A stretch of DNA of 35,397 nucleotides from Lewinellaceae bacterium (GTDB lineage: Bacteria > Bacteroidota > Bacteroidia > Chitinophagales > Saprospiraceae), in contig CANJPT010000042.1 of NCBI GenBank assembly GCA_947476195.1, positions 1 through 35,397 on the forward strand, written 5' to 3'. Below are positions 8,618 through 28,630 of this stretch, one piece after another. The position numbers and the translations under genes are program-made. The notes under the pieces are model-generated. The model ran no database searches. It was not told the DNA's origin and saw only the letters and a program-made list of their open reading frames with translations. How positions within the stretch are numbered: position 1 is the first letter of the stretch; every line of letters starts with the position of its first letter.

Positions 8618-8678
8618 CTTTACATTTACTTTAAATTTACATAAGTCTCTGATAACAAGTAACTTAATAAATACTTAA
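8618..8678 (+). promoter_or_regulatory. Pho-box-like 11-bp repeat array upstream of susC
   Basis: The strongest pair is CTTAATAAATACTTAA (CTTAA at 8663 and 8674, period 11). Upstream, CTTTA at 8618, CTTTAA at 8629 and CATAAG at 8640 continue in the same 11-bp phase, so up to six turns of the helix carry related half-sites. The second CTTAA begins 39 bp before the -7 element at 8713. Period and core resemble OmpR/PhoB-family operators, particularly the cyanobacterial Pho box. This array and its promoter account for most of the 346-bp gap at 8499-8844. Confidence 0.5.
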
Positions 8679-8712
8679 ACTACACGGGCCCTCCGTCTGG
8701 AAAGTGCCGCTT

Positions 8713-8720
8713 TACTTTTG
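8713..8720 (+). promoter_or_regulatory. -7 promoter element of susCD (TACTTTTG)
   Basis: TACTTTTGCAGCG is a full match to TAnnTTTG with the common GCA extension. It predicts a leader of about 120 nt before susC at 8845. Confidence 0.55.
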
Positions 8721-8844
8721 CAGCGTGAAATAAAGTGTGGAAACAGGTCAGTAACATGACCTCACGCTTTCCAACACAAGTACTTACCTGAACACGCTGC
8801 TATCAATAATCTGACTTCTTCTTCAATACTAAACATTTCAATTT

Positions 8845-11800
8845 ATGAAGGTTAATTACCTCTCCTTCAAGGGCATTTTTTATGCCCTTGCACTTACCCT
8901 TTTGTCCATAGTGACCGCAAACGCCCAGCAACTTAAGGGTGTGGTTATGGATGCTGAAACCAATGAGTCATTGCCTGGAGCAACCATTGCAATTCAGAAT
9001 GCTGGTCGTGGCACTTCGGCTGACGCTGAAGGGAAATTTAACCTTGATGCGCGTTCAGGCGACATTCTGGTTGTTTCACTGGTAGGCTACACGCTTCAGA
9101 ACATTACAGTTGCTGGCGAAATGTTTTTAACGATTAAACTTTCTCCATCCAACGTACTGAAAGAGGTTACCATCGCAGCACTTGGTCTGAACAAAGAGAA
9201 AGCCAAAGTCGGCTATTCCGTGCAAGACGTAAAAGGCTCCGATCTTTTGAAGGCTCGCGAACCAAATGCGATCAACTCTTTGGCCGGTAAAGTGGCTGGT
9301 CTGACCGTAGGAGCTTCTTCCGAACTTCTTGGGGCACCAAATCTTAGCCTGCGTGGTTCCAACCCGATTTTTGTAGTTGACGGCGTGCCCGTAAACTCGG
9401 ATACCTGGAATATCAGTGCTGACGATATCGAAACGTTTACCGTTTTGAAAGGGCCAGCTGCTGCTGCACTATATGGTTTCCGTTCAAAAGACGGTGTGAT
9501 CATGATCACAACTAAAAAAGGGACTGCAGACAAGCGTGGTGTCAGCGTGGAGTTTAATACCAGTCAGATGATTGAATCAGGCTTTAATGCAATCCCAAAT
9601 GTTAATGATGAATATGGCCCTGGCGACCACGGTCGCTATGCCTTTGCGGATGGCCGTGGTGGTGGCATCAATGATGGCGACTATGACGTTTGGGGTCCAC
9701 GTTTTGAAGGACAGTTGATCCCACAATACGACAGCCCGATCAACCCTGCAACAGGAGTCCGTGAAGGCACTCCCTGGGTAGCACGTGGTAAGAACAATCT
9801 TCAGCGTTTCTTACGCCCAGGTGTTCAATCCAACAACAGCATTTCGGTAAGCTCATCCACGGAAAAGATGGATATGCGCTTTAGTACTTCCTACAATTAC
9901 CAAGGAGGTATGGTACCAAACACCCAATTGAATGTTTCGAATTTCAACGTTTACAATGGTTTGAAATTCAGTAAAAAAGTCAAACTGGAAAGTAATCTGA
10001 ACTACAACCGTCAGTTTACGGACAATATCCCTGATGTAAACTATGGTCCAAACTCGATGATCTACAACATCACGATTTGGGGTGGTGCAGATTGGGATGT
10101 TGATCAGCTCAAAAATTACTGGCAGCCTGGTAAAGAAGGCGTTCAGCAGATCTATGCTGAATACCAACGCTACAACAACCCTAATTTCCTGGCGCATGAA
10201 TGGTTGCGTGGTCACCAAAAATCTGACATCTATGGTCAGACCGCACTTTCCTGGGAAATCGCAAAGGGTCTACAATTCAAAGCCCGTACGGCCATTACGA
10301 CCTATGACTTATTCCGCAACGAAAAATTCCCTTACTCTGCTACCGTTTATGGCCGTGAAGAAGCTCGGGGCGACTACCGTGAAGATAAGCGTACTTTGTT
10401 TGAAAACAATACTGACGTGTACCTGAACTATGACCGTAAGTTGAACGACAACTTTAGTCTGAATGCTCTGGTTGGAGGAAGCCTTCGTTCTTTCAATTAC
10501 GAGTCAAGCTACACAACGACCAACTACCTGAACGTACCAGGTCTCTACGCCTTCTCCAACACTGCGAATCCACTGTATGCCAGCAACTACAGATCCAAAA
10601 TGCAGGTACAAAGCGGCTACTACTCTGTCGACTTTGGCATCAAAAACTTTTTGTTTCTATCGCACACAGGCCGTGTGGACCACTTGTCTACGCTGCCAAA
10701 ACAGAACAATACATTCTATTACCCAAGTGCAGGTGCCAGCTTGTTGATCTCTCAACTTTTTGACCTTGGCCCTGTATCTTTCCTGAAACTTCGTGGCTCT
10801 TACGCCAATGTAAAAGAGGCCTTGACTCAGCGTTACATCGGCGCTACTCCGGCAGATTCATACCCACTTGAATATGGTTCGTACTATTCTTCTACCTATG
10901 ACGGCCCATCTTACTCGAATGCTTCTGCTTACAGCTCGCCTTTGGTGAATAATAACCAACCTGGCTCTTATTTTACAAACACGATTGCCAATGCAGATCT
11001 GGAGCCTTCATCGCGTACCAATTACGAGGGCGGACTGGAAGCAAAATTCCTCCGCAACCGTATCGGTCTTGATTTAACCTACTTCCAGTATATTGACGGT
11101 CCGCAAATTTTTGCGCAGCCGATCTCAGAAGCCTCTGGTTACAATAACCAGTTGATCAATGCTGTAAAAACCAAAAAAGCAGGTTGGGAAGTTTCCTTAA
11201 CGGGTTCGCCTATCAAAAATAAAAATGGCTTTTCATGGGATGTTTTGGCCAACTGGAGTACTTATAAAGAGACCTTGGCAGAACTTCCTGAGGGAACTGA
11301 TGTGATCAACACTTTCTATCGCAAAGGAGACCGTTTAGACAAATACTACGACTCTGCCCCTATCCGCGACCAACAAGGCAACTACATCAACGATGCCAGT
11401 GGTCGCCCGATTCGCAATCCGGTCGCTCAATTATTGGGTTATTCTAATCCAGACTGGGTATGGTCCGTTTACAACAAAGTTTCTTATAAAAACCTGACTT
11501 TCGGTTTTCAGTTTGATGGTCGTGTAGGTGGTGTCATTACCAACTTTATTCAGCGCCAAACATTCCGTGGCGGTCGCAATATCCTTACTACGCAAGGTGC
11601 AATGGGCGAGGCCCGCTACCAGGACTGGCTCAACCAAAAAGCTGGCAACTACACCAACCCACAGGTAAATGGTAACTATGTAGGAGAAGGTGTAAGCCTT
11701 GTATCCGGGACTATTGCCTACGATCAGGCAGGCAATATCAACAACTATGATCAATTGGAGTTTGCCCCAAATACGACCAAAACATTCCTACAGGATTACA

Positions 11801-12072
11801 TCAGCCGCTTGTACTCGATGTCTGAGCCAAACCTGATGTCTAAGACCTTCTCGAAACTTCGTGAAGTGACCCTTACGTATGAAATGCCAAAAACCTGGTT
11901 TAAAGGTGGTAGTCTCGTTCAACGTGCCAGCGTATCACTTGTAGGTCGTAACCTGCTTTACTTCGCAGAAAAGAAAGACATCGACCTTGACCAGTACATC
12001 GGCTCAAACTACTCTGGCCTTCAATCTCCAACTGCTAAACGCTACGGTATTAATTTGAACATCACATTCTAA
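8845..12072 (+). CDS. SusC/RagA-family TonB-dependent outer-membrane transporter
   Basis: The 1075-residue protein has a signal peptide (ending TANAQ, residue 28). A CarboxypepD_reg-like domain (about 29-108, LKGVVMDAETNESLPGATIAI) precedes a TonB plug (about 115-225) with the SusC phrase FVVDGVPV and the LKGPAAAALYG-SKDGVIMITTKKG segment. A long beta-barrel follows, ending GINLNITF. It imports a bulky ligand handed over by its SusD partner, powered by TonB. The substrate is not readable from sequence; most SusCD pairs take up glycans or peptides. No glycoside hydrolases lie nearby, whereas phosphonate and phosphate genes do, and the promoter carries a Pho-box-like array, so a phosphorus-containing ligand is a reasonable inference. 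Confidence 0.93.
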   Translation: MKVNYLSFKGIFYALALTLLSIVTANAQQLKGVVMDAETNESLPGATIAIQNAGRGTSADAEGKFNLDARSGDILVVSLVGYTLQNITVAGEMFLTIKLSPSNVLKEVTIAALGLNKEKAKVGYSVQDVKGSDLLKAREPNAINSLAGKVAGLTVGASSELLGAPNLSLRGSNPIFVVDGVPVNSDTWNISADDIETFTVLKGPAAAALYGFRSKDGVIMITTKKGTADKRGVSVEFNTSQMIESGFNAIPNVNDEYGPGDHGRYAFADGRGGGINDGDYDVWGPRFEGQLIPQYDSPINPATGVREGTPWVARGKNNLQRFLRPGVQSNNSISVSSSTEKMDMRFSTSYNYQGGMVPNTQLNVSNFNVYNGLKFSKKVKLESNLNYNRQFTDNIPDVNYGPNSMIYNITIWGGADWDVDQLKNYWQPGKEGVQQIYAEYQRYNNPNFLAHEWLRGHQKSDIYGQTALSWEIAKGLQFKARTAITTYDLFRNEKFPYSATVYGREEARGDYREDKRTLFENNTDVYLNYDRKLNDNFSLNALVGGSLRSFNYESSYTTTNYLNVPGLYAFSNTANPLYASNYRSKMQVQSGYYSVDFGIKNFLFLSHTGRVDHLSTLPKQNNTFYYPSAGASLLISQLFDLGPVSFLKLRGSYANVKEALTQRYIGATPADSYPLEYGSYYSSTYDGPSYSNASAYSSPLVNNNQPGSYFTNTIANADLEPSSRTNYEGGLEAKFLRNRIGLDLTYFQYIDGPQIFAQPISEASGYNNQLINAVKTKKAGWEVSLTGSPIKNKNGFSWDVLANWSTYKETLAELPEGTDVINTFYRKGDRLDKYYDSAPIRDQQGNYINDASGRPIRNPVAQLLGYSNPDWVWSVYNKVSYKNLTFGFQFDGRVGGVITNFIQRQTFRGGRNILTTQGAMGEARYQDWLNQKAGNYTNPQVNGNYVGEGVSLVSGTIAYDQAGNINNYDQLEFAPNTTKTFLQDYISRLYSMSEPNLMSKTFSKLREVTLTYEMPKTWFKGGSLVQRASVSLVGRNLLYFAEKKDIDLDQYIGSNYSGLQSPTAKRYGINLNITF

Positions 12073-12076
12073 ATTT

Positions 12077-12124
12077 ACTATGAACAGTGAACTGTGAATG
12101 CTCCGTAAGCTTATGATTCATAGT
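12077..12124 (+). other. Possible hairpin in the susC-susD gap
   Basis: ACTATGAA (12077-12084) pairs with TTCATAGT (12117-12124), and the right arm runs into TTTTT. The AT-rich 8-bp stem and 32-base loop make it weak; it could dampen readthrough from susC to susD or stabilise the mRNA end. Confidence 0.25.
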
Positions 12125-12154
12125 TTTTCCTGCATAGTTTTAAAAACATTGAAA

Positions 12155-13654
12155 ATGAAGTATTTAAAATATATCATCTCTGTCTTTCTCCTCGTGGTTG
12201 TTGCGAACAGCTGCCAAAAGTTTGATGACCTGGAGGCAGACCCAAACCGCTCTACAACTGTACCACCTTCCCTCGTATTGCGTGGTGTATTGGTTGACAT
12301 GTACAATGCTCCCTGGGGCGATGAACAACGCTGGAATCAGTACTGGTGCTCCAACTACAACTACTATGACAACAACGAATATTGGACAGGTAGCGCGAAT
12401 CTTCGCTTTACTACCTTGAAAAATGTTCAAAAAATGGAAGAGGAAGCTGCCCGTATCGGACTTCCTGAAGTGAATGCTTACAGTGCGCTGGGAAAGTTTT
12501 TCCGTGCTTACTTCTATTATGATATGACCATGAAGGTTGGTGACCTGCCACTCTCCGAGGCTTTGCTTGGAAGTCAGAATACCGCTCCAGCCTATGACAC
12601 TCAAAAAGATATCTTTAAGCAGATCATTGTTTGGTTGGATGAGGCTAACACACAATTGGCCAGCCGTATTTCGGCTTCCGATAATACGCTGACGGGAGAC
12701 ATTTATTTCAATGGCGATTTGCGCAAATGGCAGAAAGCGACCAATGCATTGAAATTGCGCGTGTTGGTACAATTGAGCAAAAAGGAATCGACTGATTCTG
12801 ATTTGAACCTTAAACAGGAGTTTGCAAAAATCATTGGGGATCAAGCCAAGTATCCACTGATGGAAGGCAATGATGATAACCTTCAGTTCTTGTTTAATAA
12901 CGTAACTGAAAAGTATCCTTTCAATCCGGACAACTTCGGTTTTTTTGCTGACCGGTATAATACCTCTGCTACCTACGTAAGCACCTTGGCTTCATTAGAA
13001 GACCCGCGTGTATTTGCCGTGGCAGAGCCCGCTCCTGCACAATTGGCTGCAGGTCTTACTGCAGCAGACTACGCAGCTTACGTTGGCGCTCCTTCAGATG
13101 AAGGCTTGGATGAAATGGCGACAAAAGTGCAAGCTGGTATCTATTCCCGTATCAACAAAGCTCGTTACTTCAGTAACTACCAGGCTGAACCAAGCATTCA
13201 GATCGGTTATTCTGAGATGTGTTTTGCTATTGCTGAAGGAATCAACCGTGGTTGGGCTTCTGGTGATGCCAAATCCTGGTATGACAAAGGTATTTCTGCA
13301 AATATGAACTTCTACGGTATCAATGACGATATTGCTATCGCTGGTTATTTGAGTGCCGTAAAAACTGCATACAAAGGCAATAATGCAAATGGCCTTACCC
13401 AAATTCTGGTTCAAAAATACCTCGCTTTGGCTCAGCATTCAGGTCTTGAAGGTTACTACAACTGGCGCCGTACCAGCACACCTACGTTTTTCCAAGGCGG
13501 TCCTGGCACTGGAAACTCTGGAGTTATCCCACGTCGCTTCCAATACCCAACCAGTGAGCGTGATAACAACAACGCTAATTACAATGCTGCTTTAAGTCGT
13601 CAATTCAATAACAACGACGACAGCATTAATGGAGAACTCTGGATCGTAAAATAA
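12155..13654 (+). CDS. SusD/RagB-family nutrient-binding lipoprotein (SusD-like_2)
   Basis: With the start at 12155 the protein has 499 residues and a typical lipoprotein signal, MKYLKYIISVFLLVVVANSC20, followed by QKFDDLEADPNRST. That opening and the phrase VPPSLVLRGVLVDMYN match the SusD-like_2 group (PF12771 type). An in-frame ATG at 12098 would put 19 extra polar residues before the signal peptide and is rejected. SusD proteins sit on the cell surface as a lid over the SusC barrel and bind the ligand. It follows susC by 82 bp and is closed by a strong terminator at 13687-13714. Confidence 0.92.
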   Translation: MKYLKYIISVFLLVVVANSCQKFDDLEADPNRSTTVPPSLVLRGVLVDMYNAPWGDEQRWNQYWCSNYNYYDNNEYWTGSANLRFTTLKNVQKMEEEAARIGLPEVNAYSALGKFFRAYFYYDMTMKVGDLPLSEALLGSQNTAPAYDTQKDIFKQIIVWLDEANTQLASRISASDNTLTGDIYFNGDLRKWQKATNALKLRVLVQLSKKESTDSDLNLKQEFAKIIGDQAKYPLMEGNDDNLQFLFNNVTEKYPFNPDNFGFFADRYNTSATYVSTLASLEDPRVFAVAEPAPAQLAAGLTAADYAAYVGAPSDEGLDEMATKVQAGIYSRINKARYFSNYQAEPSIQIGYSEMCFAIAEGINRGWASGDAKSWYDKGISANMNFYGINDDIAIAGYLSAVKTAYKGNNANGLTQILVQKYLALAQHSGLEGYYNWRRTSTPTFFQGGPGTGNSGVIPRRFQYPTSERDNNNANYNAALSRQFNNNDDSINGELWIVK

Positions 13655-13686
13655 TGGACTTAATAGATTAGACTACTAAAATCGGA

Positions 13687-13714
13687 ACGCCGGGGCAATT
13701 GCCTCGGCGTTTTT
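13687..13714 (+). terminator. Rho-independent terminator after susD
   Basis: ACGCCGGGGC pairs with GCCTCGGCGT across an AATT loop with one G-U pair, then TTTTT. It lies 33 bp after the susD stop. Confidence 0.88.
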
Positions 13715-13818
13715 ATTCCAAAAAATCCCTTCGTACTGATGAATTAACAAGCTCAAGATTTGACGGGTCTAATTTGAAGTCGTTTGCAGATGCGATCCGG
13801 CGAAAATCATAACATTGT

Positions 13819-13873
13819 ATAACATTAAGCAGGCCGGTTGCAGGCCAAAACCCAATTCCATAACAAGCGCTTA
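13819..13873. repeat. 55-bp direct repeat, copy 1
   Basis: This segment, containing CAGGCCAAAACCCAATTC, aligns without gaps to 14196-14250 with about 44 of 55 identical bases. It ends in the first half-site of the Pho-box-like pair at 13870. Confidence 0.6.
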
Positions 13874-13885
13874 ATCCAAACTTAA
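13870..13885 (+). promoter_or_regulatory. Pho-box-like operator upstream of the phnZ-like/btaAB operon
   Basis: CTTAATCCAAACTTAA has two CTTAA half-sites 11 bp apart. Weaker in-phase sites flank it: CATAA at 13859, CTTTC at 13892 and TTAAA at 13903. The second half-site begins 38 bp before the -7-like element at 13919, nearly the same spacing as in the susC promoter. Confidence 0.5.
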
Positions 13886-13918
13886 CTCCAGCTTTCCAAT
13901 TTTTAAATCAATACGCCC

Positions 13919-13926
13919 AACCTTTG
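13919..13926 (+). promoter_or_regulatory. -7-like promoter element (AACCTTTG)
   Basis: AACCTTTGCAGCG matches TAnnTTTG at seven of eight positions and shares the TTTGCAGCG context with the susC promoter at 8713. Transcription would begin near 13932, well upstream of the phnZ-like start. Confidence 0.4.
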
Positions 13927-13931
13927 CAGCG

Positions 13932-14034
13932 AAATGATCCATGAATAGTAGAACAGATTCATTGCGTACTTAGAGCTTCATACAATAATGAGTTAGATAA
14001 AGGAAGACGGCGAAATGCCGTTTTCCTTTCTTTT
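13932..14034 (+). ncRNA. Candidate short leader transcript or small RNA
   Basis: About 100 nt lie between the -7-like element at 13919 and the terminator-like hairpin at 13999-14034. A 10-codon reading frame (13941-13973, MNSRTDSLRT) is present but unremarkable. If the hairpin terminates, the product is a small RNA; if it is conditional, the segment is an attenuated leader of the phnZ-like/btaAB operon. No known RNA family is recognised. Confidence 0.3.
13999..14034 (+). terminator. Terminator-like hairpin inside the leader region
   Basis: AAAGGAAGACGGC pairs with GCCGTTTTCCTTT over a GAAAT loop (13 bp, one G-U pair) and is followed by CTTTT. It does not follow a protein gene, so it is either a small-RNA terminator or an attenuator. 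Confidence 0.65.
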
Positions 14035-14195
14035 AATTACTGCCCAGGCGCACTTTAAGTTAGATTTTTTACACTTTTCTGGCGCTTTATATTGTTATAA
14101 AAATTTGTTTTATCTAAAATAATACAAATTTTATTTCATAAAACTAAAAAAATAAAGTCTTTTTCGTCAAATTCAACGAAAAATTATTAACCTGG

Positions 14196-14250
14196 ATAAA
14201 ATAAAGCAAGCCAGTTACAGGCCAAAATCCAATTCGCTGAAAAGCACTTA
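14196..14250. repeat. 55-bp direct repeat, copy 2
   Basis: This copy, about 80% identical to 13819-13873 and 377 bp downstream, keeps CAGGCCAAAATCCAATTC. Its Pho-box-like end is degenerate (CTTAG at 14247, CTTAC at 14259, 12 bp apart), and it abuts the phnZ-like start at 14276, leaving no room for a downstream -7 element. Confidence 0.6.
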
Positions 14251-14275
14251 GTTACACACTTACTTGATTGACATT

Positions 14276-14842
14276 ATGACAAACGAATCCATCCAAAAGG
14301 TCTTTTCTACATTCCGTAACCGCGGCCATGAGGAATATCATGGTGAACCCGTGAGTCAACTCGAACACGCCGTACAAACAGCCGAACTGGCAAAAATAAG
14401 TCACCCAAATGATGCTGAATTTATCCTGGCCGCTTTTTTACATGATTTCGGACACCTCTGCGAAACCGACCTGGGCGATATGGATGGTTACGGAACCTGG
14501 GACCATGAGGAGGTAGGCGCGCGCACGCTTCGTATGTTGGGATTTTCAAATAAAATCACCCGGCTGGTCAAAAACCACGTGTATGCCAAACGCTATTTGG
14601 TTAGTACAAGCCCCCTATATTTCGCTGAACTTTCTCCGGCAAGCAAAATTACTTTGATCAAACAGGGCGGTTTGCTTTCCAAAGAAGAACAACAGGCATT
14701 TGAACAAGATCCTTTGTTTGAACTTCACATAGCATTACGCAGACTGGACGAACAAGCTAAAATGGTCGGACAACCTGAACCTGACGTAAGCTGGCTGGAG
14801 GAATTGATGCAAGGGCATTTCAACAAAGCCTTAAGGTCATGA
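14276..14842 (+). CDS. phnZ: PhnZ-like HD-domain mixed-valence diiron oxygenase (C-P bond cleavage)
   Basis: The 188-residue protein is a compact HD-domain enzyme of the phosphonate-linked PhnZ/TmpB group. Metal ligands are visible as H31, H56-D57, H77, H101 and D158. Y21 and E24 match the substrate-gating Tyr/Glu pair of PhnZ, and H60, K105, S123 and Q130 sit where PhnZ binds the phosphonate (offset of 2-3 residues, PhnZ numbering from memory). PhnZ uses O2 to split 2-amino-1-hydroxyethylphosphonate into glycine and phosphate; TmpB acts on the trimethylated analogue. The start at 14276 is preferred over a TTG at 14264. Its last four bases (ATGA) overlap the btaA start, so the two are coupled. 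The partner hydroxylase phnY/tmpA is not in the window, so the real substrate is open. Confidence 0.85.
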   Translation: MTNESIQKVFSTFRNRGHEEYHGEPVSQLEHAVQTAELAKISHPNDAEFILAAFLHDFGHLCETDLGDMDGYGTWDHEEVGARTLRMLGFSNKITRLVKNHVYAKRYLVSTSPLYFAELSPASKITLIKQGGLLSKEEQQAFEQDPLFELHIALRRLDEQAKMVGQPEPDVSWLEELMQGHFNKALRS

Positions 14843-15990
14843 TCGCGAAAATCAAAAACAAGGTCTTTTCAAAAATACACACCGGGAATCTGGTCTACAA
14901 CACTTGTTGGGAGGATCCTCGTTGTGATCGTGAGCTGCTCCAAATGGATGCAAGCAGTAGGGTCCTTATGCTTACCTCTGCCGGTTGTAATGCCTTGGAT
15001 TATCTGCTGGACAATCCTGCATCCATTGATTGTGTAGATATGAATCCCCGCCAAAATGCATTGCTCGACTTAAAATCAGCTTTGATACAATATGGAGATC
15101 ATCAGACCTTATTTGAATTTTTTGGCGAAGGAAAGCATGAGGATGCTGAAGACATATTCCAGGAAATTCTGAAACCAAATCTGGAGGACTATCCTAAAAA
15201 ATACTGGGAAAACAACCTGCATTTTTTTAGTGGAACGGGGATTCGTAAAAGTTTTTACTGGCATGGAACTACCGGATCAGCTGCTTTTCTGGTAAAAAAT
15301 GTTTTAGAAACCAACCCGAAAACCAGAAAGCTCATTCATCAACTATTTGATTGTAAGGACCTCGAATCCCAACAACAACTATATACGCTACTGGAACCTC
15401 GTCTAATCAATTCATTCACTTCATGGTTGTTCAACCGTCATATTTTCCAGAGTATGCTTGGTGTGCCGGAAGCACAACAAAATCTGGCCAGAATTACCTA
15501 CAAAAACGGCATGGCTGGCTATGTAAAACAGTGCTTTCGAAAAGTATTTACCGAAATTAGTGTTGCTGACAACTACTTTTGGAAAGTTTACTTCCTGGGT
15601 GCATACTCAGAAAATTGTTGTCCAAACTACTTGAATAAAGTACACTTTGAAACCTTAAAGAACAGGGTTGGCCGCATTAAGACATACACCTCCACCCTGA
15701 GCCAATTCCTTGAAAATAATGCCAGACAATTTACCCACTTTGTACTCCTGGATCATCAGGATTGGATGGCTGCGCACGACTTGCCAGCCTTGAAGGAAGA
15801 GTGGCAATTGATTTTGCAAAACAGTGCACCTAATGCCAAAATCCTGATGCGTTCTGCTGCAATTCAAGTGGATTTCATTCCGGACTTTGTATATCAAAAA
15901 GTAACATTTGACGCAACAAAGGCCCGCCTTGCCACGCAAATCGATCGGGTTGGAACATACGCCAGTGTCCTGTTTGGAGAAGTAAACTAA
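14839..15990 (+). CDS. btaA: BtaA-type 3-amino-3-carboxypropyl transferase (betaine lipid synthesis)
   Basis: The 383-residue protein belongs to the DUF3419/BtaA family. It has the characteristic NTCWEDPRCD (21-30), the nucleotide-binding stretch LTSAGCNALDYLL (45-57) and CVDMNPRQNALLDLK (65-79). BtaA transfers the 3-amino-3-carboxypropyl group of S-adenosylmethionine to diacylglycerol, giving diacylglyceryl-homoserine, the first step to the phosphorus-free lipid DGTS. In bacteria this is normally switched on by phosphate starvation. It overlaps the phnZ-like gene by four bases and is followed seven bases later by btaB, forming a tight three-gene operon. Length is close to known BtaA proteins. 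Confidence 0.9.
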   Translation: MIAKIKNKVFSKIHTGNLVYNTCWEDPRCDRELLQMDASSRVLMLTSAGCNALDYLLDNPASIDCVDMNPRQNALLDLKSALIQYGDHQTLFEFFGEGKHEDAEDIFQEILKPNLEDYPKKYWENNLHFFSGTGIRKSFYWHGTTGSAAFLVKNVLETNPKTRKLIHQLFDCKDLESQQQLYTLLEPRLINSFTSWLFNRHIFQSMLGVPEAQQNLARITYKNGMAGYVKQCFRKVFTEISVADNYFWKVYFLGAYSENCCPNYLNKVHFETLKNRVGRIKTYTSTLSQFLENNARQFTHFVLLDHQDWMAAHDLPALKEEWQLILQNSAPNAKILMRSAAIQVDFIPDFVYQKVTFDATKARLATQIDRVGTYASVLFGEVN

Positions 15991-15997
15991 GCACAAT

Positions 15998-16645
15998 ATG
16001 GAAACTACAGAACAGAGCCAGATAGTTGAAAGTACACAAGTCAAAACTATTCGAAATTATTATCAGGTGCACGCCAGCTTCTACCAGGCAACGCGTTGGT
16101 CGTTTCTGTTTGGCCGAAAGTCGCTCCTCCATCTGCTCAATCTGCCCATGTTAAGTGAAAAAACAGTGGTGGAAGTGGGCTGTGGTACGGGATTCAACTT
16201 GTCCAGATTGGCAAAGTTTCATTTGAATTTGCGGCTTATCGGCGTGGATATCTCCCCTGAAATGCTACGAATAGCATCAAAAAGACTGGAAAGCTATTCC
16301 AGGCGAGTGCTTTTTCTGGAAAAATCCTACGAACCAGGTAATTGGAAATTGCCTGGAAAGCCCGATGTAATTCTGTTTTCTTATTGCCTAACCATGATCA
16401 ATCCAGGCTGGGAGGATGCGCTGCAAAGAGCCTATGACGACTTAGAAGAGGGTGGCATGATAGCTGTGGTTGATTTTCAGGATTCACCCTATACGTTTTT
16501 TCAACGATGGATGGGACACAACCATGTTCGCATGAACAACCATCTACTCCCGGTCCTGAAAAAACATTTCACTCCAATTCAACTGGAAGTTCACCAGGCT
16601 TATGGAGGTCTTTGGAGTTACTTCATGTTTGTTGGGAGAAAATAA
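15998..16645 (+). CDS. btaB: BtaB-type SAM-dependent N-methyltransferase (betaine lipid synthesis)
   Basis: The 215-residue protein is a class I methyltransferase with motif I VEVGCGTGFNL (58-68) and the following acidic strand IGVDISPEML. Its position seven bases after btaA, its length and its N-terminal segment IRNYYQVHASFYQATRWSFLFGR match BtaB, which methylates diacylglyceryl-homoserine three times to DGTS. By sequence alone it could be another small-molecule methyltransferase; the btaA context makes BtaB the best call. A structured repeat element lies just downstream, but there is no canonical terminator. Confidence 0.85.
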   Translation: METTEQSQIVESTQVKTIRNYYQVHASFYQATRWSFLFGRKSLLHLLNLPMLSEKTVVEVGCGTGFNLSRLAKFHLNLRLIGVDISPEMLRIASKRLESYSRRVLFLEKSYEPGNWKLPGKPDVILFSYCLTMINPGWEDALQRAYDDLEEGGMIAVVDFQDSPYTFFQRWMGHNHVRMNNHLLPVLKKHFTPIQLEVHQAYGGLWSYFMFVGRK

Positions 16646-16658
16646 ATTAAGTACCAAT

Positions 16659-19486: not shown

Positions 19487-19617
19487 AGCGCAGCATTTAG
19501 CCCATCCCTCAAAAGCAATTCCCATTGGTTTTTGCGGCAGCAATTACATCACAATCACTTCATCTAAAAATATTGGTTCAGCACAATTCACACCCACTTC
19601 GGGCTAAAACAGCATCC

Positions 19618-22395: not shown

Positions 22396-22419
22396 GCTGG
22401 ACAACTTACCGCAGAGGTT

Positions 22420-22495
22420 CGCATATTTACCGCAGAGTCGCAGAGTCTTAATAACTTGATTATTAAAAACTCCGCGTCTCTGCGGTAAATATGCG
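22420..22495. repeat. Long hairpin repeat between convergent genes
   Basis: CGCATATTTACCGCAGAG (22420-22437) is perfectly complementary to 22478-22495, and imperfect pairing continues inward around an AT-rich loop. The motif of repeated CGCAGAG units resembles intergenic palindromic repeats seen in many Bacteroidota genomes. Its place between the convergent phosphoesterase and peroxidase genes lets it act as a two-way terminator. Confidence 0.7.
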
Positions 22496-22530
22496 ACATG
22501 AGAGACACCCTCACTGATAAGAATCTTTTA

Positions 22531-23130
22531 TTATTTCCCTTCCAACGCGCTCAAAAACTCAGGGCTATCCGGCTTAACATTTGAGGCAAAAAAATGAGTA
22601 AGCTCCCCTTTCTCGTTGACCAGATACTTACAGAAATTCCAGGTTGGCTCCTGACTATTCCAGCCATTTTGGGCTGGATCGGTCAACCAACGGTAGATTG
22701 GGGCGATCCCATCACCTTTGACATGGACCTTCTCAAACATGGGAAACGTTACACCGTAATTTTTCTCGCAAAACACTGCGATCTCTTCTGAAGAACCTGG
22801 CTCCTGACTTAAAAAATCATTTGCCGGGAAGCCAAGTATGACTATTCGCTCTTTATTTGCTGCATAGTATTTCTCCCAATCAGCATATTGTGGAGTAAAA
22901 CCACATTTAGAAGCTACGTTAAGTACAATAATCTTTTTGCCTCGAAACTGTTCAAGAGATACTGGTTTGCCATCCAGCGCATTGACCGTAAATTGAAAAA
23001 TTGAAGTAGACATTTTTTTAGCGGTGGGCACTTGTACCGGGCGACTAGCTACCTGATTTGCGTTGAAACAGGCGGATAAAAGCGTAAAAAAGGAGATTGT
23101 TACCAGGGTTAGTGCAATTTTAATTTGCAT
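22531..23130 (-). CDS. Glutathione peroxidase-family thiol peroxidase, lipoprotein
   Basis: The 199-residue protein begins with a perfect lipobox (FFTLLSAC21). The GPx fold follows, with peroxidatic C76 in NVASKCGFTPQY, the FPANDF segment (101-106) and W164-N165 of the catalytic tetrad. C121 in VFCEKNYGVTFP matches the resolving cysteine of thioredoxin-dependent GPx enzymes, so thioredoxin rather than glutathione is the probable reductant. It reduces hydrogen peroxide or lipid hydroperoxides, here at the membrane. It sits 99 bp downstream of the FAD oxidoreductase gene on the same strand. That oxidase would release hydrogen peroxide, but the lipoprotein location argues against a direct pairing. 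Confidence 0.9.
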   Translation of the reverse strand: MQIKIALTLVTISFFTLLSACFNANQVASRPVQVPTAKKMSTSIFQFTVNALDGKPVSLEQFRGKKIIVLNVASKCGFTPQYADWEKYYAANKERIVILGFPANDFLSQEPGSSEEIAVFCEKNYGVTFPMFEKVHVKGDGIAPIYRWLTDPAQNGWNSQEPTWNFCKYLVNEKGELTHFFASNVKPDSPEFLSALEGK

Positions 23131-23229
23131 GATTGTAATTGTATTTTGAAGAATACAAACACCAGTAAGCAGATTTTGTTTGACTTTTCACAATAGATGC
23201 TCCAGTTTTTTGAAGGCAAGTCAAAATAA

Positions 23230-24351
23230 TTATACCAACTCGGAAGCCAATCCAAAACTCATAGTCATTCCTGCTCCACTCAGGCCATTGACGATCCACA
23301 CGCTTGGCTCCACTTCCTTCACAAAGTCCGTTCTGCCTGGCAATTTCGGATAAACCCCATGCCAGGTTTCCGCGATGGCCGCATCCGGAAAATGTGCAAA
23401 TGTTTTCAAATAACCCAGGATCAGTTGGTTAATCGCTTCACTGTCAAAAGGTGAAACATCCCAGCCATATTCATGACTATCGCCAAGGATGATTTCGCCA
23501 GAATGGTTTTGAGAAACCAGTACATGGATACCGTAGCGGGCGAAGTCAGGGTTTTCAATGTCATAGCGTTCTCGCACGGGTGCCAGACTATTCAAGTGCG
23601 CAAATGAACTATAATGCAATAGTGTAAGTCCGGCACACAGCGAAGGCCCTAGTTGCCAGTCAGCTGCCTGAGTACCCGTTCGAAGCATTTGAAGCTTACA
23701 TTTTGTGATGCCACTTTCGCGATAAACCCGTGGATATAAGGTTTCAAAATCAGCCCCGGAGCAAATAAAAATGCGCTCCGCCTGCCAGATATCATAAAAA
23801 TCAGAGAGAATTCCTGAGTCAACATGGGTAATTGCCGAACCAAATCGAAAGGTCACGCCTAATTCTTTTTCCAGATATTCCGCGAGTTGTGGAATGGCCT
23901 GTCGAGACGAGACCGTGCATTCCGTACCACTCCAGAGTGCTGCTTTTAAGCCATCGGTTTTTGCTGCAGGGCTATGCATCACAACTTCGTTTGGTGTCAG
24001 CATTTTTACCTGATACCCGGCATTTTCGGCGTTATTAAAAAAATCCTGCAAAACATCCACCTCATCCGCATGATAAGCCAACTGAAGGGAACCATTTTGT
24101 TTTATCTGTACGCCGCTTTCTGCTGCAATATCCAACCAGATCTCACGGCTATGCATGGCCCTGTCATACATTGGACCAGCGGGTTGGCCAATGGGCCACA
24201 ATAGTCCAAAGTTACGGATAGAAGCACCTATCGCCCGTGGGTTACGTTCAAATACAATGGTTTTCAGCCCTTTACGAGCTGCCGCATAAGCTGTTGCAAG
24301 GCCCACAATGCCTGCACCGATGACGGCTACATCAAATTTATGGTCAATCAT
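23230..24351 (-). CDS. FAD-dependent oxidoreductase of the phosphonate-associated TIGR03364 type
   Basis: The 373-residue protein opens with the dinucleotide-binding fingerprint VAVIGAG14IVG followed by FERN. It ends with VEPSVWIVNGLSGAGMTMS, the second FAD contact of the DAO family. IGASIRNFGLLWPIGQPAGP and the overall length fit the TIGR03364 group. Relatives oxidatively deaminate 2-aminoethylphosphonate or its N-methyl form to phosphonoacetaldehyde. The ATG at 24351 gives the usual short distance to the fingerprint; an ATG at 24369 is possible. It overlaps the transporter gene by 8 bp (or 26 bp), so the two are translationally coupled. A phosphonatase-like gene lies about 4.3 kb away. Family is firm; exact amine substrate is inferred. 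Confidence 0.85.
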   Translation of the reverse strand: MIDHKFDVAVIGAGIVGLATAYAAARKGLKTIVFERNPRAIGASIRNFGLLWPIGQPAGPMYDRAMHSREIWLDIAAESGVQIKQNGSLQLAYHADEVDVLQDFFNNAENAGYQVKMLTPNEVVMHSPAAKTDGLKAALWSGTECTVSSRQAIPQLAEYLEKELGVTFRFGSAITHVDSGILSDFYDIWQAERIFICSGADFETLYPRVYRESGITKCKLQMLRTGTQAADWQLGPSLCAGLTLLHYSSFAHLNSLAPVRERYDIENPDFARYGIHVLVSQNHSGEIILGDSHEYGWDVSPFDSEAINQLILGYLKTFAHFPDAAIAETWHGVYPKLPGRTDFVKEVEPSVWIVNGLSGAGMTMSFGLASELV

Positions 24352-25669
24352 AGTTTTGTTGATAAACATTTATTGAAGTCTGAGCGTGTGGAAACGCCCT
24401 TTGTTTTTTCCTTAAAAAATACCCGTATGAAGCTACTGTAAAGAGTAAAATAAGTCCAGCCCCTACATTGCAAAGTTCCATATAAAACCCCAGCCAACTC
24501 ATCCCGCCTGCCCAGAAATTGCGCCAGATCAATACCGCTACGCTGCCCAAATAGCCAATAGAATCAGCTAAATACATTAAAAAGCCTGCATTGCCTCGTT
24601 CCCGAAAGCTGGCCATAAGCCGGTCAAACAAAACGCCATTGAACAATATATAGGGCAAAAAAAGACCAAAACCGGAAGATATCATCCAAATTACAGGAGA
24701 AATCATACCATGCTGAAATAAAAAGGTCCCTCCAAACAAAAGCAGCGCACCGAAAACAGCAAGTGCATGATTGAGCCATAAAGCCTGAAAATTGTCTTTA
24801 ACAAACATCATCAATCCAACCGCTAAAAGCGAAAAAATGGCCACTGGAATTTCTGCCATTGTTAAAATAGAAGCCTGGCCTTTGAAGCCAAGTTCATCCC
24901 AAATTTCTACCGCAAAATTGTCGCGTATATCCCGAACAATAGTCAATATCAAATAGGAGGCTACCAACAAGATCAACCCCAGCGCATATCGCTGAAACAA
25001 GGCCTTCCGATCCTGAGTGGTCATACTCGTACGGGGTGCTCTTTGTGCTTTATCTGCCTCCGTAGGTGGCGGCAAATGGGCCAAGACCCAGATACAAATC
25101 AGTAATAGGGGAAGAAAGATCATTGCTACGGTAAAAGGCATCCACGTTTCACTAACCCCATAGGATGTGAGTAGCCATTTACCTGTAGTCTTTACAAAAC
25201 CAGAGGAGATGATAAAATTGATACACAGTATTGCCGCCAATGCTTCCGTTACCCTTCGACCTTCTAAGTAACCGAAAATCAGGCCCCAGGCCATGCCCAA
25301 CGGAAGACCATTGATAAACATCCAAGCTGCGTTCCACGGGAAGGGTGTTAGTGCAAAGCCTAATAATGACAACATGGCGATACCCACCAAACCTACTAAA
25401 TAAGTGCTACGCCGCTCTGGCGTCATGCCCGAAATAATTCGAATCCCTATAAATTTGGATAAGGCATACCCTGCCACCTGGGCCGTTACCAGAACGATTT
25501 TAAATTGTATGCCCCAAAGTTGCAAATCTGCATACGTCCCTGCCGTAAAAGGCTTGCGAAAAGCATAAATACAGCAATAGGCCACAAAAGAAAAAAGCCC
25601 TGCAACCGCAATAAATACAGTCGGAGAGGCAAAGGCCATACGGCGGGCAAAAGATTTGGAATGCAGCAT
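24344..25669 (-). CDS. DUF5690 / MFS-like membrane transporter
   Basis: The 441-residue protein has about twelve hydrophobic helices (for example 13-37, 50-76, 89-109 and the last near 395-418) with a charged central loop (about 205-225) splitting them six and six, as in the major facilitator superfamily. The sequence matches DUF5690, a Bacteroidota group that I recall occurring next to TIGR03364 oxidoreductases. The coupled downstream oxidoreductase suggests it carries an aminophosphonate or its amine relative across the inner membrane. Its upstream gap holds a Pho-box-like pair at 25755, read in the opposite orientation to the gene. Confidence 0.8.
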   Translation of the reverse strand: MLHSKSFARRMAFASPTVFIAVAGLFSFVAYCCIYAFRKPFTAGTYADLQLWGIQFKIVLVTAQVAGYALSKFIGIRIISGMTPERRSTYLVGLVGIAMLSLLGFALTPFPWNAAWMFINGLPLGMAWGLIFGYLEGRRVTEALAAILCINFIISSGFVKTTGKWLLTSYGVSETWMPFTVAMIFLPLLLICIWVLAHLPPPTEADKAQRAPRTSMTTQDRKALFQRYALGLILLVASYLILTIVRDIRDNFAVEIWDELGFKGQASILTMAEIPVAIFSLLAVGLMMFVKDNFQALWLNHALAVFGALLLFGGTFLFQHGMISPVIWMISSGFGLFLPYILFNGVLFDRLMASFRERGNAGFLMYLADSIGYLGSVAVLIWRNFWAGGMSWLGFYMELCNVGAGLILLFTVASYGYFLRKKQRAFPHAQTSINVYQQNYD

Positions 25670-25754
25670 GATTTAGCCGTTCAATTGGAAGAACGACACA
25701 ATGATAGGACTGCAAATCCCTGCCTGCCAAGTCTTACCTTAAACACAACTATTA

Positions 25755-25770
25755 CTTAACCCTGACTTAA
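25755..25770 (+). promoter_or_regulatory. Pho-box-like operator upstream of the transporter/oxidoreductase operon
   Basis: CTTAACCCTGACTTAA has half-sites at 25755 and 25766. It overlaps the stop codon of the haloperoxidase-fold gene (25767-25769). The downstream operon runs on the minus strand, so the repeat is inverted relative to its gene compared with the other four copies. A weak -7-like GGGATTTG lies at 25713-25720 on the minus strand. Confidence 0.4.
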
Positions 25771-27941
25771 AGTCTGGCAATTTTTTCCTGGAAAATACGC
25801 TGTCCTGCCCCATCCATTCCAACCACGATGTAGACACCAACGCTTAAATTGGTCAGATCCAACAAGGTGGTCTTGTCCTGGAAATCCAAGTCCGCAGTCA
25901 CCGCTAAGCGCCCGTCAGCTCCAAAGACCTGTACGAGCAAGGTACCCTCATAATCAGCCTCGATCTGTACCATACAGGTTGTTGGGTTTGGAAAGATATT
26001 GAAGGCGCTTACGCTGTCCTGAGGACTGCTCCTGGTAAAATACTGCTCTGCAAAAGCCAGTGCGTCGGGACCAATTTTCATTCCGATCAGGCGACCCGGG
26101 ATATCATCCATAGGTGCATGGATACCACCAAAGATTCGGGAAAGGCTGCATTGATCCGAAGCATCCCGGTAGGTGGCCCACTGAAGGGTAATGTCCACGC
26201 TTGGGCCATCCTCAAAGACCAGGTACGCATCCTTTTTGCAGTGAAAAGTCCCCATTCCACCAGGAAAATACTCGTCTCCGGTCAATGCTGTAAGCAATTC
26301 GGCTGCAGCACGACTATACGTAGAGTGACCCGAAATATACCCTGCAAACGGGGGCGTAACAAAGGTTGGCCGTTGGTATGGCCACCAGTTTTTGGCCAGG
26401 ATCCACCCTACCCCGGCGACATCTGTTTTGGGATTTGAAATAGACCCCGGACCTTTCCAGGATCTGAGTTTCACCGATCCGACATTCAGGTTGTTGATTC
26501 CATGAAGCGGGTCGTCGGGCTGAACGAGCTCAATATAACCTGGGATGAGTGGTAAACCTCCAGGGTGATAGTTGGGCAGGCCCGGATCGCTGCTTTGTCC
26601 CAATTCAGCCATCGCACGTATCGCGCTTACAGGGCGGGATGCATCATAACGGCCTTTGATACTCCAGGCGGCTATGGCGGCATCCTGCATGGCCCCACCC
26701 AGCGCGAAATAGCATTTCACATCCCATTCCAGGTTTTCGCATAAAGGCCCGGTTCCCCGGATCTGGCGTACGATTCCCGGCTGATCATTTACATAGTTCA
26801 GTATTTCAAACCAATGCCCCGGAGGAGTAACGGAACGCGGACCATCTGCCCAAAATTCTGCCAAAACCCGGGTGTAATCACCACGGGGAACAATTTGTGG
26901 CGTATATGGCTGCCCGGTTTTAGGATTATTGGAACGTCCCATTCCAGAATCACCTCCCTCAAAAAAGTCGTAAAAACTGTGATAATCGGCCCAATTTGAA
27001 GGGTAATTCGGATTGTTTCCAACTGAGGCCGGCGAAATATCCACCATCACGCCGTCTTTCGGATCAAGGAGACTGCTCCATGCCGCTACAAGCGCATTGT
27101 TCCATTGAAATTCTTGCGATTCACTATTGATGGCAGCCGTATCCAACAGGGGTGGTGGCCCTGGGTCGAGCCAAACCCTGTAATCGTATCCGGCGCGCTG
27201 AAAGACACTTGCATCTGATTCCTGAAGCGCAAATGGCATGACCCAGCCCCATTCTGCTGCCTGAAATTTAGTGACTAAATCTGTAAAGGAATGTTCACTC
27301 TGATCCACAAATGTCGAGAATTGCAACGGTTGCCAGCGGTTGATATCCTCAATGTACGGATTGCCGGTTTGACTGGGGAACATGGGAGGGTTTACAGGGA
27401 GATAAAACTGGTTGGCGTAGTTAGTTGCTTCATTCGAACCATCCTGTAAGCCGTATTCTATGACTTTCAGGGCAATATAATTGCCCATTTCAGCCGGGCC
27501 GCACTTATAGTTGGTAGAAGTATTGTACCGATCATACCCAAGGGCTTTCATCAACTTGTTGATGTCTCTGGTTAGGGTATCAATACCTGGCGATTTAGCA
27601 TAACGATGAAGCAGCAAGCGATATGTAGCAAAGCTGATGGCCTCTTCCTGTGCTTTATGCACCTCAGCGGTTGGTGGAACCATGTGGTAAGGAATCTGAA
27701 ATCCATGCACCGTTTTCCCCAAAAAATAGGTCTCTGCATTCGGGTTATAAACTGCCCAGGCGTCATACATGGCTGCAGAAATATGGAACAGGTTGCGGGC
27801 ATGTACCGTGGGTCGGGCAAAATCACCGCTGATAGCTTCCAAAACCATTTCATTCCATTGGCGGGCAACAGATGGCTGAGCTTTTATGGCATTGAAAACA
27901 AGCGAAAGAACTATCCAAAGCAACAGGTTCTTTTTATTCAT
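25767..27941 (-). CDS. PAP2 / vanadium-haloperoxidase-fold protein with T9SS sorting domain
   Basis: The 724-residue protein has a signal peptide (about 1-22, NAIKAQ) and the complete acid phosphatase/haloperoxidase signature: K517-NWWPYQ-R524-P, S537-G-H539, and S-R602-IFGGI-H608-APM-D612. These residues bind phosphate or vanadate. The last 75 residues (from about SAFNIFPNPTT) form a type A T9SS C-terminal domain, so it should be secreted or surface-anchored. Family members are phosphatases or vanadium haloperoxidases; the sequence does not separate them, but the phosphorus-related neighbours favour a phosphatase. The ATG at 27941 is preferred to a TTG at 27962, since it directly starts the signal peptide. 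A -7-like TAATTTCG lies at 27970-27977. Confidence 0.87.
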   Translation of the reverse strand: MNKKNLLLWIVLSLVFNAIKAQPSVARQWNEMVLEAISGDFARPTVHARNLFHISAAMYDAWAVYNPNAETYFLGKTVHGFQIPYHMVPPTAEVHKAQEEAISFATYRLLLHRYAKSPGIDTLTRDINKLMKALGYDRYNTSTNYKCGPAEMGNYIALKVIEYGLQDGSNEATNYANQFYLPVNPPMFPSQTGNPYIEDINRWQPLQFSTFVDQSEHSFTDLVTKFQAAEWGWVMPFALQESDASVFQRAGYDYRVWLDPGPPPLLDTAAINSESQEFQWNNALVAAWSSLLDPKDGVMVDISPASVGNNPNYPSNWADYHSFYDFFEGGDSGMGRSNNPKTGQPYTPQIVPRGDYTRVLAEFWADGPRSVTPPGHWFEILNYVNDQPGIVRQIRGTGPLCENLEWDVKCYFALGGAMQDAAIAAWSIKGRYDASRPVSAIRAMAELGQSSDPGLPNYHPGGLPLIPGYIELVQPDDPLHGINNLNVGSVKLRSWKGPGSISNPKTDVAGVGWILAKNWWPYQRPTFVTPPFAGYISGHSTYSRAAAELLTALTGDEYFPGGMGTFHCKKDAYLVFEDGPSVDITLQWATYRDASDQCSLSRIFGGIHAPMDDIPGRLIGMKIGPDALAFAEQYFTRSSPQDSVSAFNIFPNPTTCMVQIEADYEGTLLVQVFGADGRLAVTADLDFQDKTTLLDLTNLSVGVYIVVGMDGAGQRIFQEKIARL

Positions 27942-27969
27942 AATCCTAACTTTTTGATTCAAGACGGTG

Positions 27970-27977
27970 CGAAATTA
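27970..27977 (-). promoter_or_regulatory. -7-like promoter element for the haloperoxidase-fold gene (TAATTTCG)
   Basis: TAATTTCGCACCG on the minus strand matches TAnnTTTG at seven of eight positions and lies 29 bp before the start codon. No CTTAA pair with 11-bp period is found at a matching distance. Confidence 0.35.
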
Positions 27978-28047
27978 CTCCATCAAACCAATAACAACAC
28001 TTAATTCAATATTTTAAGCCTGAACCCTACCCAAAATACAACAATTA

Positions 28048-28063
28048 CTTAACCATTGCTTAA
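28048..28063 (+). promoter_or_regulatory. Pho-box-like operator upstream of the GNAT gene
   Basis: CTTAACCATTGCTTAACC has half-sites at 28048 and 28059. The second begins exactly 17 bp before the -7-like TTCCTTTG, so it covers the -33 region, the place where activators of the PhoB type bind. Confidence 0.55.
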
Positions 28064-28075
28064 CCTGCTATGCTT

Positions 28076-28083
28076 TTCCTTTG
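28076..28083 (+). promoter_or_regulatory. -7-like element for the GNAT gene (TTCCTTTG)
   Basis: TTCCTTTG matches TAnnTTTG at seven of eight positions. It predicts a leader of about 20 nt before the ATG at 28110. Confidence 0.4.
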
Positions 28084-28109
28084 TGATAAGTAACTATTTT
28101 GTAAAGTCC

Positions 28110-28610
28110 ATGTTTCTAAGACCATATCGCCCTTCCGACAAAAGACAATTACAACAATTATTCTTCGACACAGTGCATGCTGTGAACGCCCATGACTATA
28201 CGCCTGAGCAGCTAATGATATGGGCCCCAACAGATCCTGACCGGGAAATTTGGGCCCGATTGGATACCCAACATTGTTTTATCGTAGAATATCAAAAAAT
28301 AATTGTGGGCTTTACAAGTTTGACCCAAGAGGGATGGGTAGATCTTCTTTATGTACACAAAGATTTTCAGGGACGTGGGATCGCCAGTAACCTGCTGAAG
28401 CAATTAGAAAGACTTGCCAAAAAAAAAGGATTTGAATGCCTGACTGCTGAAGCCAGTATCACGGCCCTTGGTTTTTTTGAAAAAGCTGGATTCAAGTTGC
28501 TTCATGAAAATCAAAAATTGAAAAACGGACTGGAATTTCGCAATTTCATCCTTCAAAAATCGCTTCCGCAACCTGCTACAAAAAACACCCAAAACTTAAC
28601 CCCTGCTTAA
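28110..28610 (+). CDS. GNAT-family N-acetyltransferase
   Basis: The 166-residue protein has the GNAT acetyl-CoA loop as VHKDFQGRGIASNLL (82-96), preceded by the beta-4 strand WVDLLYV and followed by the YafP-like ASITALGFFEKAGFK. The substrate is unknown. Because AEP acetyltransferases such as PhnO are GNAT enzymes and the gene has a Pho-box-like promoter in a phosphonate setting, an aminophosphonate is a candidate, but this is inference only. The ATG at 28110 matches the family start (MFLRPYRPSD); a start at 28056 would lie between the second operator half-site and the -7 element. Its last codons and stop are part of the next operator (28595-28610). Confidence 0.8.
   Translation: MFLRPYRPSDKRQLQQLFFDTVHAVNAHDYTPEQLMIWAPTDPDREIWARLDTQHCFIVEYQKIIVGFTSLTQEGWVDLLYVHKDFQGRGIASNLLKQLERLAKKKGFECLTAEASITALGFFEKAGFKLLHENQKLKNGLEFRNFILQKSLPQPATKNTQNLTPA
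28595..28610 (+). promoter_or_regulatory. Pho-box-like operator upstream of the phosphonatase-like gene
   Basis: CTTAACCCCTGCTTAA has half-sites at 28595 and 28606. The second begins exactly 17 bp before the full-match -7 element TACATTTG. The final TAA is also the stop codon of the GNAT gene. Confidence 0.6.
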
Positions 28611-28622
28611 TTTTCGCCCCGC

Positions 28623-28630
28623 TACATTTG
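28623..28630 (+). promoter_or_regulatory. -7 promoter element for the phosphonatase-like gene (TACATTTG)
   Basis: TACATTTG is a full match to TAnnTTTG, 18 bp before the ATG at 28649. It leaves a very short leader and shows that a TTG start at 28628 cannot be right. Confidence 0.6.

Follow-up and report, generated by a model that had tools for sequence, protein, structure and literature searches.

Tandem CTTAA-type repeats as probable Pho boxes of a phosphorus gene island in a Lewinellaceae bacterium

Introduction

Why should five gene units with likely roles in phosphorus metabolism be accompanied by the same short direct repeat? The question arises from a stretch of 35,397 nucleotides (the whole of it is called the window below) of a Lewinellaceae bacterium (Bacteroidota; Saprospiraceae; assembly GCA_947476195.1, contig CANJPT010000042.1), in which the pair CTTAA-N6-CTTAA, i.e. 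two half-sites with an 11-bp period, lies close to a susCD transporter pair, an operon with the betaine lipid genes btaAB, an operon of a DUF5690 protein and a FAD-dependent oxidase, a GNAT acetyltransferase gene and a phosphonatase-like gene. The original prediction, made from the letters of the window alone, took this pair for the Pho box of the organism. The assembly comprises 224 contigs (4.76 Mb, 97% complete), and its nearest named relatives by BtaA, among the best 80 of 579 btaA-like stretches, are Saprospiraceae metagenome-assembled genomes.

We support the original interpretation and assign it a probability of roughly 0.85: the pairs are probably Pho boxes, tandem 11-bp half-sites cTTAAC/cTTAAT for the response regulator PhoB (here the regulator L011), which would act as switches under phosphate shortage. 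The support comes from matrices trained on pst loci or derived from bta loci of relatives, from the linkage of the regulator, from promoter phasing and from boxes before the organism's own PiT and phoB genes. The element is an 11-bp head-to-tail repeat, stands upstream of phosphate uptake genes and of phoB, and keeps a fixed helical phase to the promoter.

Results

All five predicted pairs are present, at 8663, 13870, 25755, 28048 and 28595, each on the plus strand. Dinucleotide shuffles of the window contain 0.07 such pairs on average and none of 100 shuffles reached five; among direct CTTAA pairs with spacings of 5-44, five have spacing 11 and every other spacing occurs once or not at all. 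The same preference is seen in 20 wide DUF5690 neighbourhoods of other genomes (321 kb, selected from 60 genomes with DUF5690), with seven pairs at spacing 11 and at most three at any other spacing in this range. The own genome holds eight exact pairs in total, three of them elsewhere; because five of the eight fall into the 35-kb window, the exact form is a local and not a genome-wide feature. None of the other sites inspected in the own genome, whether exact or with one mismatch, revealed an obvious phosphorus target. Enrichment becomes visible when phosphorus loci are examined and a degenerate matrix is used.

Since no pst genes were found in the own genome, the predicted position upstream of pst was examined in relatives. 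PstB scores over the cut-off in 38 of 149 genomes of the order, with 41 matches, and the pst set consists of 40 neighbourhoods (578 kb), namely 39 of these 41 plus one just below the cut-off. A scan of all 5-mers at spacings of 6-30 not divisible by three returned TAACA and TTAAC at spacing 11 as top direct repeats (21 against a mean of 2.3, and 15 against a mean of 1.7). Of the listed TTAAC, TAACA or CTTAA pairs, 22 of 27 lie on the pst strand, and 22 of the 40 loci have none. The 17-base matrix built on the pst loci uses 22 distinct 17-mers containing TTAAC or TAACA pairs, from any part of these loci and none from the window. It ranks the five window sites 1, 3, 4, 6 and 9 among 70,762 positions; ranks 2, 5 and 7 go to these boxes shifted upstream by one period, i.e. 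to third half-sites. With a combined matrix, a sense intergenic box of at least 9 bits was found within 6 kb upstream of pstB in 26 of 36 pst loci, part of which had trained the matrix (four of the 40 had too little upstream sequence). The predicted position upstream of pst and pho genes is borne out for pst in relatives and for the own phoB candidate and PiT gene described below.

An independent test was possible at btaA operons. From the best 80 of the 579 btaA-like stretches 58 loci were kept, including four Fodinibius/Aliifodinibius loci and one record titled Thalassovita; L134 (on the contig of L133), 16 loci labelled Verrucomicrobia or Victivallis, L190, L192, L194, L195 and L201 were left out. 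Usable upstream sequence was available for 54 of the 58, or 45 after dereplication. Expectation maximization (EM) with 120 random starts on these 45 regions gave cTTaACaaaaagtTAAc (cTTAAC-N5-cTTAAC) as best motif with a log-likelihood of 145, compared with 61-65 in three block-shuffled sets, each given 40 starts. The resulting matrix ranks the window sites 1 (13870), 2 (28048), 3 (8663), 4 (25755) and 14 (28595). In the whole sequence of the 58 loci, TTAAT at spacing 11 leads all 5-mers (21 against 2.4). The 16 loci labelled Verrucomicrobia or Victivallis are almost devoid of such pairs, whatever the spacing. L122, the closest relative, has after mauG a promoter, CTTAATCAAGACTTAAA, that is orthologous to the susC promoter of the window but drives btaAB directly; it keeps the box, the 39-bp distance and the element TACTTTTG.

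The candidate PhoB is the OmpR-family regulator L011, encoded on contig C18 together with a partner kinase. Nine of the 40 pst loci were found to include a regulator gene, and all nine products match L011 best of the ten own regulators compared (42-58% identity). In L075 the gene order is pstC-pstA-pstB-phoU-phoB-phoR, and the kinase encoded there is 48% identical to the own kinase over the full length. L011 combines a receiver and a Trans_reg_C domain with a paired kinase, and its type is linked to pst-phoU in relatives only. In the own kinase, which is 349 amino acids long, Pfam detects HisKA and HATPase_c domains but no PAS domain. The pst-linked regulators of L075, L081, L085, L090, L092 and L096 have kinases of the same size (349-351 amino acids) nearby, those of L088 and L091 kinases of 570 amino acids. 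The idea that a PAS-less kinase is a trait of genomes lacking Pst was rejected, because kinases of this length also occur beside pst-linked regulators and that of L075 likewise lacks a PAS match.

The gene of L011 itself is preceded by CTTTACACAGAATTAAC, which begins 56 bp before the start codon and scores 10.4 bits with the pst matrix and 12.2 bits with the combined one. Of eleven own OmpR-family matches nine were tested for a box, and the other eight score at most 5.2 bits. Among 30 phoB orthologues of the family, own gene included, a box of at least 12 bits was found in 15 on the sense and in one on the antisense strand; lowering the threshold to 8 bits gives 20 and 6. Three exact pairs among the matches listed end 77-85 bp before phoB orthologues (G209, G235 and G247). 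Outside the order we took 20 genomes from the phylum-wide PhoB list of 148, with putative orthologues of the regulator picked by best model score; a clear box signal was obtained in one family (5/5). The own gene of the PiT phosphate transporter, which is followed by a Porin_O_P gene, carries CTTAACTCTAAGTTAAT upstream (13.3 bits); this box is nearly palindromic and reaches 10.3 bits on the opposite strand. Of 150 upstream regions sampled over 400 kb of the own genome, only two score at least 11 bits, those of a histidine ammonia-lyase gene and of phoB.

The boxes keep a regular distance to the promoter. Of the promoters with a box of at least 9 bits, 70 after dereplication, 24 have the −7 element TAnnTTTG within 60 bp. 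From the start of the second half-site to the −7 element we measured 28, 29, 38 (seven times) and 40 bp (three times) for phoB, 27, 28, 38, 38, 39, 49 and 49 bp for bta, and 16, 38, 48, 49 and 49 bp for pst. All 24 distances fall within four residues modulo 11 (binomial p 3e-11, with the residue window chosen after inspection of the undereplicated distances); before dereplication 29 of 30 did so, the exception being 58. The distances claimed earlier for the window hold for 8663, 13870 (there with one mismatch in the −7 element) and 28595, and for 28048 only if the imperfect TTCCTTTG is accepted (Table 1). The window sites with the 17-bp distance end 10 bp before the −7 element.

Table 1. Boxes, promoter elements, genes and hairpin of the phosphorus island (positions in the window)
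Feature	Position	Strand	Remarks
Half-site array before susCD	8618..8679	+	CTTAATAAATACTTAAA at 8663; weak half-sites at 8618, 8629, 8640, 8651
−7 element TACTTTTG	8713..8720	+	39 bp after start of second half-site; kept in L122
SusC-type TonB-dependent transporter	8845..12072	+	homologue in L129/L130 (76-77% identity), next to FAD oxidase, DUF5690 and btaA
SusD-type lipoprotein	12098..13654	+	Pfam/NCBIfam
Three half-sites CATAAC/CTTAAT/CTTAAC, 11-bp spacing	13859..13886	+	first two touch end of dispersed repeat
−7 element AACCTTTG	13919..13926	+	one mismatch; 38 bp after start of the pair's second half-site
Terminator-like hairpin	13999..14029	+	13-bp stem, T-rich tail; between 13870 promoter and HD gene
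HD-domain phosphonate oxygenase-like protein (PhnZ/TIGR03276)	14264..14842	+	184 bits, below cut-off of 214.6
BtaA (DUF3419), betaine lipid synthesis	14839..15990	+	Pfam/NCBIfam; relatives found
BtaB-type methyltransferase	15998..16645	+	methyltransferase in BtaB position; homologue in 50 of 58 kept bta loci
TIGR03364 FAD-dependent oxidase	23230..24369	−	440 bits, above cut-off of 285
DUF5690 protein, membrane transporter-like	24344..25669	−	function-unknown family; putative transporter role
Half-sites 25744 (weak), 25755, 25766	25744..25771	+	inverted relative to DUF5690-FAD operon
Box CTTAACCATTGCTTAAC at 28048 and third half-site upstream	28037..28064	+	top window match of pst-trained matrix
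−7-like element TTCCTTTG	28076..28083	+	imperfect; 17 bp after start of second half-site; missed by stricter pattern search
GNAT acetyltransferase	28110..28610	+	longer frame from TTG at 28056; L133 homologue has 16.4-bit box
Box CTTAACCCCTGCTTAAT	28595..28611	+	in 3' end of GNAT frame, before phosphonatase-like gene; 8.1 bits pst matrix, 9.0 bits bta matrix
−7 element TACATTTG	28623..28630	+	17 bp after start of second half-site
PhnX-like HAD hydrolase (TIGR03351)	28649..29392	+	165 bits, below cut-off of 218.9; longer frame from TTG at 28628

Gene labels were taken from Pfam and NCBIfam models. The HD oxygenase and the PhnX-like hydrolase stay under the curated cut-offs, and BtaB is assigned by position. 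The company of these genes recurs in relatives. L125 and L126 share the order susC-susD-HD-btaA-btaB, and genes for SusC, DUF5690, HD, PhnX and FAD oxidase adjoin btaAB in L170-L172, L174 and L175. As in the PusCD systems discussed below, the SusCD pair of the window stands beside phosphorus genes; SusC and SusD homologues accompany phosphonate or bta genes in L053, L064, L125 and L126, and SusC does so in L129, L130 and others. A sense box of at least 9 bits was present in 17 of 55 upstream regions of DUF5690, SusC, HD, PhnX and FAD-oxidase homologues and in 36 of 347 upstream regions of other genes (Fisher p 1.5e-4; set not dereplicated, also without L123). In the DUF5690 set, 23 of 62 matches of the real matrix lie in the intergenic region just upstream of a gene, against 11 of 79 for the reversed control.

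Discussion

The mechanism that we infer, from binding and activation to the phosphate signal and the substrates of the enzymes, would run as follows. Phosphorylated PhoB (L011), together with its partner kinase, would bind the half-sites head to tail. Under phosphate shortage, PhoB would be placed next to the promoter in a fixed helical register and would recruit RNA polymerase. This would switch on susCD for uptake through the outer membrane, and the HD oxygenase with btaAB for the use of phosphonates and the synthesis of phosphorus-free betaine lipids. Further targets would be the GNAT gene, the PhnX-like hydrolase gene and, probably, the DUF5690-FAD operon; phoB itself and the PiT-porin phosphate-uptake genes elsewhere in the genome would be activated together with the island.

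The Bacillus PhoP box consists of TTAACA repeats. Its core and 11-bp period resemble the pst promoters of this order, whereas the window sites favour CTTAAC/CTTAAT. The Pho box of the cyanobacterial SphR is described as tandem CTTAACCT octamers with at least three repeats (PMC1906773). It has a nearly identical half-site, the same period and, as here, a position upstream of pst and phosphatase genes; in our case, in contrast, there are often two clear half-sites with degenerate neighbours, in another phylum and with a TAnnTTTG promoter. Judged by its letters, the operator appears to be of a known kind, a Pho box, and closest to the cyanobacterial one. The E. coli PhoB box, with 8-bp repeats, a 3-bp linker and an end 10 bp before the −10 element (PMC1906773), shares the 11-bp head-to-tail repeat and the 10-bp distance found at the 17-bp window sites, but its half-site sequence differs and most boxes measured here are one to three helical turns further upstream.

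Within the phylum, low phosphate is reported to induce SusCD-like transporters and a MauG-like gene in Flavobacterium, where PusCD genes lie beside phosphonate genes and pstS was present in only 26 of 102 genomes; in F. johnsoniae the induced MauG-like gene belongs to the phoX cluster (PMC8115612). The window likewise has SusCD and a MauG-like gene, although its SusCD adjoins btaAB and the HD oxygenase; the word "motif" does not occur in the available text of that paper and no box is given there. Binding of PhoB to the pstC promoter was reported for B. fragilis, with no site sequence in the text available (PMC3547664). Our full-text literature search, which covered open-licence papers, found no Pho-box sequence for Bacteroidota.

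Several results weigh against the Pho-box interpretation. Genome-wide enrichment, which had been expected of the pair, was not seen: the reversed control pattern occurs 32 times in the own genome compared with eight exact pairs, and among 100 genomes of the family, the own one included, 91 have CTTAAYN5CTTAA no more often than its reversed control (totals 546 and 1555). The exact pair is rarer than the control, and we rejected it as a tracer of a genome-wide regulon. The bta matrix is not specific on its own, with three window matches of at least 12 bits against 0.53 predicted from the own-genome sample, and 12 against 3.45 at 8 bits, a modest contrast. In the 58 bta loci neither CTTAA (6, next spacing 4) nor TTAAC (5, next 6) has a clear peak at spacing 11. 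Ten of the 36 pst loci are without a box, 13 of the 30 phoB orthologues score below 10 bits, and within 60 bp TAnnTTTG is missing from 46 of the 70 boxed promoters. Beyond the order, boxes of at least 10 bits are found in 11 of 20 cases in sense and 7 of 20 in antisense, which is weak overall. PhnX homologues are boxed in 2 of 12 cases in sense and in 6 of 12 in antisense. No box precedes the TonB gene at 16943, the phosphoesterase gene at 29457 or the GPx gene at 22531 of the window, and the phosphoesterase gene at 19525 has only an 8.2-bit box inside the preceding gene. In the sample of the own genome the highest-scoring box (16.9 bits) lies 152 bp upstream of the histidine ammonia-lyase gene L220:9434 on contig C19. 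L011 fails the curated PhoB models (NF053854, 221.7 bits against 270; TIGR02154, 219.8 against 296.2); NF053854 is passed by none of 148 genomes of the phylum. The 25755 box is indeed inverted relative to its operon, a weakness that the original prediction had conceded and that stays. Inverted boxes may nevertheless be real, because the near-identical L129 and L130 also carry an inverted box (17.9 bits) before susC.

Three other explanations were considered. Another OmpR-family regulator, CopR- or PmrA-like, could bind the CTTAA pairs and let the phosphorus genes answer a different signal. There are enough candidates in the own genome with its eleven OmpR-family matches, and in L057 two exact pairs (1545 and 1764) lie between DUF5690 and a CopR-type, L009-like regulator gene. 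PmrA, moreover, recognises YTTAAK direct repeats (PMC10927774), so that the use of a CTTAA half-site also counts against a Pho box; the two operators share this half-site as OmpR-family sites, while regulator and regulon differ. We consider this explanation improbable, because a close variant of the repeat is the top 11-bp repeat at pst loci and the box precedes the gene of the pst-linked regulator type and none of the eight other own regulator genes tested.

Repression would mean that the pairs 17 bp from the −7 element block polymerase while phosphate is plentiful, and it is true that these sites overlap the −33 region. In E. coli, PhoB activates from a box located 10 bp before the −10 element. 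The sites in question have just this register (PMC1906773), and 23 of the 24 measured boxes are found at 27-49 bp, so we think repression very improbable. A third possibility, that local promoter duplication or a dispersed repeat left the five copies behind and that they have no common regulator, deserves hardly any credence: the first half-sites at 13870 do touch the end of a dispersed repeat with further genome copies, and the flanks of 25755 and 28048 look alike, but the pair is missing from the five other aligned repeat copies and the motif was found independently in other genomes, at promoters of pst, bta and phoB and in phase with −7 elements.

To return to the Pho-box interpretation, the own genome departs from the E. 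coli type, in which PstSCAB and PhoU transmit the signal. Within its 97% completeness, no PstB over the cut-off was found (TIGR00972 stays below) and neither PhoU (PF01895) nor PhoU_div (PF01865) had a match, which also speaks against a Pho regulon. If there is no Pst-PhoU complex, phosphate must be sensed by another route. We tentatively suggest, as a possibility that we would not rate as the likelier one, a Pho regulon that dispenses with Pst, PhoU and any PhoU-like accessory protein, where the short PAS-less kinase and PhoB run the island together with PiT and an OprP-type porin.

With a matrix that matches pst, bta, phoB and PiT promoters, phosphorus regulons could be predicted in a group that is represented here mostly by metagenome-assembled genomes. 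SusCD, phosphonate and betaine-lipid genes could be tied to phosphate stress, and phosphate sensing by PhoBR could be tested where Pst and PhoU are missing.

Other features of the region

Any transcript from the 13870 promoter would have to pass the hairpin at 13999-14029, which probably determines how much susCD product is made relative to HD-btaAB product. Rfam at gathering thresholds returned nothing in the window. A small RNA as product of this promoter was rejected; because the hairpin is conserved between susD and HD in L125 and L126, it is more likely an intercistronic attenuator. The dispersed repeat near this site has two copies in the window, 13803-13873 and 14180-14250, which are 76% alike, and it recurs in other own contigs (L220, L213, L206 and L205).

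A MauG-like di-haem peroxidase gene at 7464-8498 adjoins the phosphorus island; no box was found upstream of the PaaB-MauG pair in the window. On the minus strand, CTTTACAAAATAGTTAC at 28090-28106 precedes the gene of a vanadium haloperoxidase-like secreted protein (25767-27962). We find this site unconvincing, with 13.8 bits in the bta matrix and 4.0 bits in the pst matrix. Among the bta loci, L133 and L134 represent an identical btaA locus read from both strands of one contig, apparently a palindromic assembly. Finally, on the own contig C33 (position 8171, L114:1501), TTTAACTTTTTCTTAAC with TACTTTTG downstream stands before two glycosyltransferase-2 genes, which perhaps serve glycolipid remodelling.

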